Positions 27,229 to 30,746 of a DNA stretch of 64,000 nucleotides are shown here, in pieces. The position numbers were made by a program, and so were the translations under genes. Every line of letters begins with the position of its first letter. Positions within the stretch are counted from its first letter, which is position 1. Below the pieces are notes generated by a model. The model had not been told where the DNA came from and made no database searches. It saw only the letters and a list, made by a program, of their open reading frames with translations. The stretch is from Pelovirga terrestris (GTDB lineage: Bacteria > Desulfobacterota > Desulfuromonadia > Desulfuromonadales > Geopsychrobacteraceae): contig NZ_JACWUN010000001.1 in the NCBI RefSeq assembly GCF_014773365.1, positions 1 to 64,000 of the forward strand. The letters run 5' to 3'.

Positions 27229-28434
27229 CTATTCGCAGACACAGCGCCGGCTGAGATCTTCTTCGCTCACCAGGGGCGCTTCTGTCGACAATTCCAGTCC
27301 ATCGGCAAGGATTCTGTCACCGCAGGTTTGGAGCAGTTTTAAAAAATTCAAGGTTAGATGGGGGTTGAGTTGACTGCCTGCCACCTCCATCATCCGGCCA
27401 CTGATCCGGGGTAGATCCCAGGGCTCTTTATAGGCGCGGCGGGTCCTGAGGGCATCAAAGGTATCGGAGATCATCGTCATCTGACTGCAGAAGTTGAGTT
27501 GCCAGCCGGGCGGGGGTGTCGGATAGCCGGTTTTGTCATAACGCATGTGATGTTCAAAAGCGGTTAAAATCGCGATCTGCGGCACATCTTCCTGACCCAT
27601 CAGATACTGGGCTCCACGCGCAGGGTGTTTCTTGATCTCCTGCCACTCGGCGTCAGATAGCTGATGCGTCCCCCTGATGATTTCTTTATCGACAAAAATT
27701 TTACCGGCATCGTGCAACATCCCGGCCACGCCCACATCATGCAGCAGATCTTGGTTTAATCCCAGTGATGTTGCCTGGGCGATATTGAGAATGGAGACAT
27801 TGATGGAATGGGCGAAGGTATACTCGTCTTCCACCTTCAGTGGAACCAGGGCCAATAACGGGTTGCATTCCTGTTGGAAGGCCGCAACAAACCCGGAAAT
27901 GATGGCAGAAATCTGACGCAGGTCAACGTTTTCCTTGTCGGCAATTTTTTCATAAAGGGTTTTGATGCTCGCCAGTTCCTCGGGACTTAAATCTTCAAAG
28001 CGGGCAATCGCCAGGGGACTGTCCGGGTCATCCTTGACATCAATTTTACCATAGTCGATATGGGGAGCGCCGGTATCAACCTGCTGGAGCGGCTGGTTGC
28101 CACACACGACATCGATGAACAATTCGATCTCGTTGCTCCTGATCCCGTTTTTCAGAGTAACGTAGCCAATGTTACGACCGTAAAGAGAGCGGGTGATGCG
28201 CTCACAATGGAGGGTTTGTTCCAGAGGGGTTCCGTCACACAGAAGTTCCTTTTTGACGATCATAAAGGTTATTTCTTTATGCTGATTGAACAGAGCCTTC
28301 AGACATTCCAGAATCCGGAGGACCTGGGTCTGCACTTGCTCATGGGTCAGAGAATAGAGGTTGGTCGTTGCAATGGCGGTTGATAAAAGGCGCAATAGTT
28401 CGTCGATTTTACTGCGATCAATGCCCGATTTCAT
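27229..28434 (-). CDS. HD-GYP-type phosphohydrolase with novel N-terminal domain
   Basis: 401 aa. The C-terminal half is an HD-GYP domain, the family that degrades cyclic di-GMP or related dinucleotides: LHDAGK with H241-D242, KKHPARGAQYLMG, and HHMRYDKTGYP. In the last motif the usual HHExxDGxGYP glutamate is M and the glycine is K, so activity is uncertain. The first 110 residues have no domain I recognise, but resemble the N-terminus of the upstream gene product (28431-30593) in length, pattern and several identities. The two genes overlap by 4 bases (ATGA), so they are co-translated. Confidence 0.85.
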   Translation of the reverse strand: MKSGIDRSKIDELLRLLSTAIATTNLYSLTHEQVQTQVLRILECLKALFNQHKEITFMIVKKELLCDGTPLEQTLHCERITRSLYGRNIGYVTLKNGIRSNEIELFIDVVCGNQPLQQVDTGAPHIDYGKIDVKDDPDSPLAIARFEDLSPEELASIKTLYEKIADKENVDLRQISAIISGFVAAFQQECNPLLALVPLKVEDEYTFAHSINVSILNIAQATSLGLNQDLLHDVGVAGMLHDAGKIFVDKEIIRGTHQLSDAEWQEIKKHPARGAQYLMGQEDVPQIAILTAFEHHMRYDKTGYPTPPPGWQLNFCSQMTMISDTFDALRTRRAYKEPWDLPRISGRMMEVAGSQLNPHLTLNFLKLLQTCGDRILADGLELSTEAPLVSEEDLSRRCVCE

Positions 28435-30593
28435 GGGTTTTTCTCCTGCTTATTGCGCTGAAGAATTTGTCTGGCCAGGTTGGCCGCCTCAACGTTCCCT
28501 TTGTTAAGTTGTTGTCTAAGCAGCGGATCGGCCTGGTCCGCAGGGTATTTGGCAAGGACCCTGATGATTTCGATCTTAAGTTGCTCAATTCCCTGACGAT
28601 GAAATAAGTTGCGCCCGTTCAAAATTTTGGAAAAAACCCCCAGGGCCCCGGGATGAACTTTTTCTGCCAAAGCTTGAACCAGATTTTTTTTCAGTTCCAG
28701 ATCGAAATTGAACAGAGATTTTTCGCCCAGCATGGCCAACAGGTGCTTCGTTATCTCCGCATGATTAATTAATTTTGTCATAAGAATAGCATTGAGCGCT
28801 TCCTGCCGGTTCTTCGAGTGGAGCCCGGCCATAATCTCCTTGATGGAAAGGGTATCACCCAGCAACAGACAGGTTTTTAATGCTTCCTGGCGGACTTTGG
28901 TGTGGCTATGGTTGAGCAGGGGTCTGATCCTGGGGAGCTGCTCTTTCGCCTCCAGTTCACCGAGGAGTAGGAGCATATTGCGGACCACGTACCATTGATT
29001 ATTATCAAGGTATGAAGCCGCGGCATCGATGACCTGTTGCCCGAGCTTTTTAAGGCAACTCAGATAAAAAAACCGGTTAGTGCGATTTGTCTCGCTGATC
29101 GTCAGTTCGAGCAGAGGAGAAATAAAGGGTGAGCCAACCAAATCAATAATATCACCAAGCATGATTCGATGATCTTTGCCCTGGTAACAGGCTGCCGTCA
29201 CCGCCTGTTTCAACAAGGAAGAGGGGATCATGTTGCTCGGAAATTGGGTATCTTTGTGGTTCGCCTGAGTGAAAATCGACCGACAGAGGGCCAGTGTTCC
29301 GGCGAAATCGCCCGCATCAAGATAAAATTGCAACGATTTGACAAGCTGCTGATACAATGCCGGCATCTGGTTCTTGTCGGGTCCATGCTCTAACAGATAG
29401 AGCGATAACTGCGCGGTCTGAAGGTCGATCTGGAAGTGTTCCAGACTGGTTTTGAGGCTTTTCAATTCGCGGCTTAGAACGGTCGGAGGCTGTTGGTCGG
29501 CGAGAACATCCAGCAGGGTCTTCTGGTATTCCGCCGGGACGTATTGGGCAATATCTTCATTGCTTAACAGTTCGCCTGCTTTTTTTAAAAATCCTTTTTC
29601 ATCCCGTGACAGTCGGTTGATTTCCTGCTGGGAGACAACTTCTCGTGATTCCGCCAGTTTCATTACCAACGACAGCATCATTGGTGATGAGTAGTTCTGC
29701 CCGGAGGTGGCTTGATAGAGTGCGTTGAGGATCACCTTGTTGGATAGATTATTACATAGATCCTCGGCAAAAGTCTTAGGAATCGGCAGCTTACAGAGCT
29801 CCTTGACAATTTCTTGCCTGGGCTCATCATCAAAGTGGTTGATCAGCTCTGCCAGCTTAATAAGGATTTCCAGGCGTTCGGATTTTGGATAGTGAGCCTG
29901 GGTCGTAGTAATACAGCGGATCAGGGCTTTGTTAAACTGAGACTGCTCTTCCCCGGTCGTTCCTGTTAAGAGCAGGCTGAGTCGGCGCGCCAGGAGGGCG
30001 GGATCAAATCCTGTTTGCGCCAAGCTGTCAAGATCGGTATCCGCAAAAGCAGATATGAGCGAGCGGGCGTAGCGTTCCCAGAAGTGATCGGCCACGCTGC
30101 GGATCTTGTTTTTGTCAGCCTGATCCTTGCCATCGACCAGCAGAAAGTCCTTACGTGACATCTGGGTAACGATAATCCCGTCAATTTGTTTCTGTTCGAG
30201 CAGGTTAATGATACCATCAGCTTTCCAGGTGTCATCAGGGCTGCCCATGATAACGCGCAAAAACCGGTAGAGGGAAGGTATGGTGAGTTCAGCGGTTAGG
30301 GTGAAGGTGGTAATGCCATGCTGAAACATGCGATAGGCGTATTTGCTGAAGAGCTGGTTGTTGGGGTTCAGCAACTCCCCCAACACCATAAAATTGTTTT
30401 TTGCGACAGAGATCTGTACCGGCAGGTTGGCTGCTTGAGCGGCCTTAAGACCGCTCAGCAGTTTGGCGCTGGCAGTCTGGACAACAGCATTATCCTCATC
30501 GTATAAACTCAAATGCTTGCTGAGCACTAGCATGGTTTTGAGGATGTTTTCATGTTGATTGATGATGACATCTATGTTCAGTTGTTGATTCAT
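28431..30593 (-). CDS. Large HEAT-repeat protein paired with HD-GYP gene
   Basis: 720-aa cytoplasmic protein with no signal peptide or TM helix. The N-terminal about 110 residues match the N-terminal domain of the following HD-GYP protein (patterns VVQTASAKLLSGLKAA, MVLGELLNP, HGITTFTLTAEL). The rest is almost all alpha-helical. The C-terminal 200 residues contain HEAT-like repeats: LGELEAKEQLPRIRPLLNHS, HTKVRQEALKTCLLLGD, KNRQEALNAILMTKL. It probably serves as a scaffold or sensor partner of the HD-GYP enzyme. Specific function unknown. ATG 30593 is taken; TTG 30599 is possible. Confidence 0.75.
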   Translation of the reverse strand: MNQQLNIDVIINQHENILKTMLVLSKHLSLYDEDNAVVQTASAKLLSGLKAAQAANLPVQISVAKNNFMVLGELLNPNNQLFSKYAYRMFQHGITTFTLTAELTIPSLYRFLRVIMGSPDDTWKADGIINLLEQKQIDGIIVTQMSRKDFLLVDGKDQADKNKIRSVADHFWERYARSLISAFADTDLDSLAQTGFDPALLARRLSLLLTGTTGEEQSQFNKALIRCITTTQAHYPKSERLEILIKLAELINHFDDEPRQEIVKELCKLPIPKTFAEDLCNNLSNKVILNALYQATSGQNYSSPMMLSLVMKLAESREVVSQQEINRLSRDEKGFLKKAGELLSNEDIAQYVPAEYQKTLLDVLADQQPPTVLSRELKSLKTSLEHFQIDLQTAQLSLYLLEHGPDKNQMPALYQQLVKSLQFYLDAGDFAGTLALCRSIFTQANHKDTQFPSNMIPSSLLKQAVTAACYQGKDHRIMLGDIIDLVGSPFISPLLELTISETNRTNRFFYLSCLKKLGQQVIDAAASYLDNNQWYVVRNMLLLLGELEAKEQLPRIRPLLNHSHTKVRQEALKTCLLLGDTLSIKEIMAGLHSKNRQEALNAILMTKLINHAEITKHLLAMLGEKSLFNFDLELKKNLVQALAEKVHPGALGVFSKILNGRNLFHRQGIEQLKIEIIRVLAKYPADQADPLLRQQLNKGNVEAANLARQILQRNKQEKNP

Positions 30594-30746
30594 CTTCAAG
30601 TTTTTCCGCTTTGATTCAGCCCTATATAAGCAATTGTCTCCCTATGGTATCGCATATAGTGTAGCTCATATGGTTCTGACCAGCAGCTACCGATACACAT
30701 TATGGGTGGATAATGCGCACCGGATGTCCATTTTTCCTGGATCGAA

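Follow-up and report, generated by a model that had tools for sequence, protein, structure and literature searches.

Two overlapping genes of Pelovirga terrestris encode proteins that start with the same unnamed domain of about 135 residues (hereafter the N-domain), which is followed by HEAT repeats in one protein and by a variant HD-GYP domain in the other. Because the N-domain is common to both proteins and the two genes have been inherited together across several phyla, the pair very probably constitutes one signaling unit. What is new here is the HD-GYP subfamily, its undescribed HEAT partner and the unnamed domain that they share, while the kind of enzyme itself is known.

Two overlapping genes share a homologous N-terminal domain

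The pair lies on the reverse strand of the window, that is, of the whole stretch of 64,000 nucleotides that was analyzed. The upstream open reading frame (28431..30593, reverse strand) encodes the HEAT-repeat protein (HEAT_2, E-value 7.2e-9), which has 720 residues when counted from the ATG at 30593, with a TTG at 30599 as a possible alternative start. The second open reading frame (27229..28434, reverse strand) encodes a protein of 401 residues with the N-domain and the HD-GYP domain (HD_5, E-value 3.9e-14, above the Pfam cut-off), hereafter the HD protein. The overlap of four bases reported by the first-pass annotation is exact in its coordinates and corresponds to the ATGA at 28434-28431 (28431..28434, reverse strand). 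A ribosome-binding-like AGGAG precedes the start codon of the HD gene and is located within the HEAT gene (28443..28447, reverse strand). At the other end of the HD protein, the C-terminus (27229-27260) reads RCVCE; the terminal [CHQ]VCE is conserved in the close clade of the window protein (401-403 residues) and missing from the other pair types, and it includes a conserved C-terminal cysteine.

The N-domain covers residues 10-148 of the HEAT protein (30150..30566, reverse strand) and residues 6-134 of the HD protein (28033..28419, reverse strand). The similarity of the two N-termini was initially proposed from an alignment made by eye, which is not proof because the score of the single sequences barely exceeds that of shuffled ones (local score 41, shuffled mean 27.7, P-value 0.018). 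We therefore rely on the comparison of the profiles of 36 HD and 34 HEAT homologs, which match over 129 columns in the same register as that first alignment (hhalign probability 99.5%, E-value 3e-22). In the control comparisons of either N-terminus with the other segments of the partner, no match was found (probability ≤ 5.4%). Moreover, a joint profile of the N-domain has exactly two matches in the P. terrestris genome, namely the HEAT and HD proteins of the pair (E-values 4.5e-39 and 2.8e-39, respectively). The marginal score of the single sequences could be taken as a sign that two helical N-termini resemble each other by chance, but the profile match, the failing controls and the absence of any other match in the genome rule this out, and we assign it a negligible probability. 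The N-domains of the two proteins are thus homologous.

The predicted structures agree with this conclusion. Both models (pLDDT of 84 for the HEAT protein and 78 for the HD protein) have an alpha/beta N-terminal region with the same order of secondary-structure elements, which consists of two long helices, a hairpin of two or three strands, a helix, a strand, further helices and a strand. The consensus of a mixed alignment of 30 sequences (LYxxxHPxV ... LxxL ... V-strand ... LxxxGIxxxxFxxGxxxxELxxFxxxL) is mostly hydrophobic. Its only invariant column is one tyrosine, and no charged residue is invariant across the HEAT and HD copies.

The first-pass annotation had also suggested that the pair arose by duplication. 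This holds at most for the N-domain: since only this domain is common and the other parts are unrelated, as indicated by the failing control comparisons, the two genes are not duplicates over their whole length. In the HEAT protein, the N-domain is followed by a middle region with no named family (residues ~160-480; 29154..30116, reverse strand), which is all-helical in the AF2 model and has no Pfam match, and then by the HEAT repeats (residues ~480-718; 28440..29156, reverse strand), which are supported by Pfam, by the AF2 model and by Foldseek. The best HEAT_2 (PF13646) stretch covers residues 524-602 and scores 36.3 bits against a cut-off of 27.7, and 33 of the 34 members match this family. 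The C-terminal repeats are those of the PBS-lyase-like HEAT_2 proteins, but the HEAT protein of the pair differs from them in the N-domain and helical middle, which lie outside any model, and in its strict pairing with an HD-GYP protein.

The N-domain had been described as unrecognized, and we reached the same result. No Pfam model covers it in the 34, 36 and 30 members that were tested, and the same holds for NCBIfam, which was searched with both proteins of the window and with 34 HEAT members. A match to the GAF family was found in none of the members tested. The profile search of the PDB returned no convincing solved structure and nothing beyond noise; one match to a designed protein (0.0007), limited to 45 residues and with no passing stretch, was taken as chance. 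When whole models were searched with Foldseek, HD-GYP and HEAT structures dominated and no match was attributable to the N-domain alone. Finally, we found no description of an N-domain/HEAT/HD-GYP pair in the literature that we searched, in line with the claim that the pair is undescribed.

The pair is conserved and inherited as a unit

The N-domain is present in all 60 Desulfuromonadales relatives that were searched, where 128 of the 150 matches listed, a list that stops short of the weaker matches, have a neighboring match on the same strand within 2.6 kb. These genomes contain two types of pair, of ~725 and 400 residues (the type of the window) and of ~545 and 445 residues, and some of them host two pairs in tandem. 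Beyond this order, the domain is found in 63 of 148 genomes of the wider phylum, in 54 of 80 genomes of a Nitrospirota draw and in 33 of 79 genomes of a Coriobacteriia draw, each of the 33 having an even number of matches. Pairs were detected also in Aminicenantes and Fermentibacteria.

Overall, in the loci that we fetched, a gene for an N-domain/HEAT protein lies directly upstream of 99 of the 116 open reading frames with N-domain and HD-GYP domain. The remaining 17 are at contig or locus edges, are frameshifted or are second copies of loci already counted, and hence no intact gene among the 116 lacks its upstream HEAT partner. The pairing is thus obligate in all complete loci, including those of Desulfuromonadales, for which the gene pair had been proposed as worth searching. 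The overlap is also conserved, as it occurs in 72 of 87 distinct pairs (43 by exactly four bases and 7 by one), with a few long overlaps over-called because the first possible start codon was used. Among individual loci, a frameshift or stop splits the HD gene in one case (L034:5986-7120) and the HEAT gene in another (L088:2968-4631). In a metagenome-assembled genome labeled as Pseudomonadota, both the HD-GYP protein with N-domain and the upstream HEAT protein (L042:1832-3943 and L042:3-1835) host a very long low-complexity stretch rich in Gly and Ser.

The genes that flank the pair vary between clades. An acyl-CoA ligase is found upstream of the ~545 and ~445 residue type, whereas the pair of the window's clade is flanked by a DEAD helicase gene on one side and a cation efflux gene on the other. 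A Desulfuromusa-like group (L017-L024, L091, L092, L099, L103) has the fixed order of phoH/yqfF-like (7TM-HD) genes, pair and ettA-like ABC-F gene, in which the latter is downstream of the pair and the phoH/yqfF-like genes are divergent. Due to these differences, no common neighbor points to a pathway, and flanking genes were discarded as a clue to function.

In a tree of 156 N-domains, one branch separates all HD-type from all HEAT-type copies, as expected from one ancient split of the domain; the branch is weakly supported (66/83) and a smaller tree did not recover the split cleanly. When the N-domain is left out, the trees of the two proteins have 36 of 75 splits in common, compared with a mean of 0.2 and a maximum of 2 under permutation, and their mirror correlation is 0.86. 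In each of the 12 genomes with two pairs, the cognate combination fits better than the swapped one. These matched trees indicate inheritance as a unit and speak against frequent exchange of partners; they do not indicate contact, since adjacent genes share their history anyway.

The HD protein belongs to a variant HD-GYP subfamily

The HD-GYP domain (residues 198-370; 27325..27843, reverse strand) is supported by conservation across 99 sequences and by alignment to PmGH, the GAF-HD-GYP c-di-GMP phosphodiesterase of Persephonella marina (PDB 4mcw/4mdz/4me4; phmmer E-value 1.6e-26 for 4mcw), whose HD-GYP fold it shares (Foldseek E-value 2.8e-9). It keeps H209, H241-D242, K245, H270, H295-H296 and D324. 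In PmGH numbering, the residues retained are D183, H189, H221, D222, K225, H250, H276, H277, the GYP residues, D305, D308, R314 and K317, which include seven of the eight metal ligands. Unlike PmGH, the HD protein has a tyrosine (Y205) at the position of E185, as in a binuclear-type subfamily, and HHM in place of HHE, so that the altered motif HHMRYDKTGYP is present just as the first-pass annotation had it. The two proteins also differ in that the N-domain has no recognizable match to the GAF domain of PmGH, with another predicted order of elements, and in that the study of PmGH [PMC4159591] describes no HEAT partner gene for it.

We extended the comparison to the 99 proteins with N-domain and HD-GYP domain. 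The seven bi-metal ligands tested (H189, H221, D222, H250, H276, H277 and D305 in PmGH numbering) [PMC4159591] are all kept in 98 of them, including that of the window, and the exception is the copy from Fermentibacteria. The equivalents of K225 and D308 and Y285 are likewise kept, and together with the metal ligands are found in 97-99 of the 99 proteins. At the position of E185, 96 of the 99 have a tyrosine and hence miss the carboxylate of the trinuclear (E/D-T-G) subgroup. This tyrosine places the family in the Y/F group of HD-GYP proteins, which has been described as probably binuclear [PMC4159591]. With respect to the signature HHExxDGxGYP, HH, D and GYP are retained, the glutamate is replaced by M, L, I or V in 95 of the 99 proteins and the first glycine is variable. 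HHE is present in the readable HD-GYP proteins without N-domain from the same loci and in the other HD-GYP protein of the genome. Because of the changes at these two positions, the proteins are, as judged from their sequences, a recognizable variant subfamily, HH-[MLIV]xxDxxGYP, rather than standard members.

The metal site of this subfamily is apparently complete and phosphodiesterase activity is likely, although activity or substrate may differ because of the departure from the signature at the glutamate and glycine. The same departure would fit a binding or structural domain in place of an enzyme, which would make the pair a scaffold, and HD-GYP proteins that are inactive do exist. One of them is Bd1817, an unconventional HD-GYP protein of Bdellovibrio (PDB 3tm8; Foldseek E-value 2.2e-5) that has the same fold and an extra N-terminal region; it lacks the GYP tyrosine [PMC4159591], whereas the HD protein of the window retains GYP. 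We consider such a loss of catalysis improbable, given the almost complete retention of the seven metal ligands, K225, D308 and Y285. Furthermore, PmGH remained active upon alanine changes of the GYP residues, while most losses of metal ligands abolished its activity [PMC4159591].

The N-domain recurs in proteins related to second messengers

The N-domain is found also outside the pair. Its carriers comprise proteins of ~1430 residues with GGDEF, AAA_16, two tandem N-domains and HEAT repeats (L145, L146, L147, L153, L185-L192), which occur in several families of the phylum; GGDEF-AAA-N-HEAT proteins of ~1200 residues; proteins of 1680 and 918 residues with N-domain and HEAT repeats that end in cNMP-binding and PilZ domains (L148:3014-8056, L149:2920-5676); a histidine kinase of 573 residues with N-domain; and lone N-domain/HEAT proteins. 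By this domain composition, the recurring company of the N-domain is the synthesis, binding and breakdown of second messengers. One further N-domain protein of 741 residues (L159:2404-4629) has a sub-threshold GGDEF match near its C-terminus (17.3 bits, cut-off 23.8), possibly a degenerate GGDEF domain.

In the first five proteins with tandem N-domains, the profile scores looked suggestive of one HEAT-type and one HD-type copy, as if the pair had been fused in a single chain (the Rosetta-stone idea). A tree with nine such proteins rejected this arrangement, as the tandem copies cluster together in a separate clade (98/98), and the groupings of the HEAT type with the first copy and of the HD type with the second were rejected. 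The tandem copies hence derive from an independent duplication inside these proteins. Like the pair, GGDEF-AAA-N-N-HEAT proteins (L145, L185-L192) combine N-domain and HEAT repeats, to which the chain adds GGDEF as a cyclic-dinucleotide enzyme; they differ from it because this enzyme is a synthase rather than a phosphodiesterase and because of the separate clade of their N-domains. Since the N-domain is found in HEAT and other proteins that have no HD partner, pairing between HEAT-type and HD-type copies is not its sole use.

A candidate phosphodiesterase with a dedicated HEAT partner

We propose that the two genes encode a cyclic-dinucleotide phosphodiesterase and its dedicated HEAT partner, coupled via the homologous N-domains, and we hold this model with about even confidence. 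Building on the homology, obligate pairing, joint inheritance and retained metal ligands, we infer heterodimerization, catalysis, the substrate and a binding partner of the HEAT protein. The HD protein would be a phosphodiesterase of c-di-GMP or 3',3'-cGAMP, belonging to a distinct HD-GYP subfamily. The two N-domains would most likely pair with each other as a pseudo-symmetric heterodimer, and the HEAT solenoid, by binding a target or receiving a signal, would determine how active the phosphodiesterase is or where it is placed. The tandem duplication of the N-domain in GGDEF-AAA-N-N-HEAT proteins fits two paired N-domains as the working form. By analogy, this pairing would resemble the dimerization of PmGH, in which only the N-terminal GAF domain and the linker helix take part and to which the HD-GYP domain does not contribute contacts [PMC4159591]. 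The HD protein has a comparable layout, since its model places two helices (residues 151-165 and 172-189) between the N-domain and the HD-GYP domain.

A context of cyclic dinucleotides, as had been suggested initially, is supported by the alignment to PmGH, the retained ligands and the occurrence of the N-domain in GGDEF and PilZ proteins. The genome of P. terrestris has 30 GGDEF matches, 10 EAL matches over the cut-off and one further HD_5 protein, as well as four matches to riboswitches of the c-di-GMP-I family. This riboswitch family also comprises the cGAMP-sensing GEMM-Ib variants. The description of the pair as two-component does not hold in the sense of histidine kinase and receiver, as neither protein has HisKA/HATPase or REC domains. 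No PADLOC model matches the pair either, and a known anti-phage defense system is not indicated.

Two other readings concern the N-domain itself. Each protein might form homodimers through its own N-domain, so that the two would be co-translated and act in the same pathway with no stable complex between them. HD-GYP proteins such as PmGH are indeed homodimers [PMC4159591] and the N-domain occurs also in lone proteins, but a shared pathway does not usually require that the genes are always adjacent and overlap and that their trees match, and we regard this possibility as unlikely, albeit the strongest competitor of the heterodimer. Alternatively, the N-domain might bind a ligand, for example a nucleotide, with both proteins answering one signal. 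Such a role would suit a domain that lies at the input end of HD-GYP, histidine kinase and HEAT proteins and that adjoins GGDEF-AAA modules, yet a mostly hydrophobic consensus with a single invariant tyrosine and no invariant charge across both copies makes sensing rather doubtful. In its broadest form, the model of the coupled phosphodiesterase takes the N-domain as a new signaling dimerization domain and assigns the HEAT protein to a new HD-GYP subfamily as its obligate regulatory subunit. In at least five phyla, a widespread bacterial second-messenger phosphodiesterase would then be regulated through the heterodimer that it forms with a HEAT scaffold by means of homologous domains. This wider proposal is more tentative and we lean slightly against it.

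Implications

To our knowledge, HD-GYP enzymes are common and the regulation of only few of them is known. One of their subfamilies, marked by HH-[MLIV]xxDxxGYP, has a fixed HEAT partner and shares with it an unnamed domain, and the pair offers a concrete candidate complex of two proteins to test. Defining the N-domain would give a name to many proteins that are annotated merely as 'HEAT repeat' or 'HD domain'. In metal-reducing Desulfuromonadales, cyclic dinucleotides control extracellular electron transfer, as for Geobacter GacA [PMC6456294]. We speculate that the pair may be part of this control in Desulfuromonadales.
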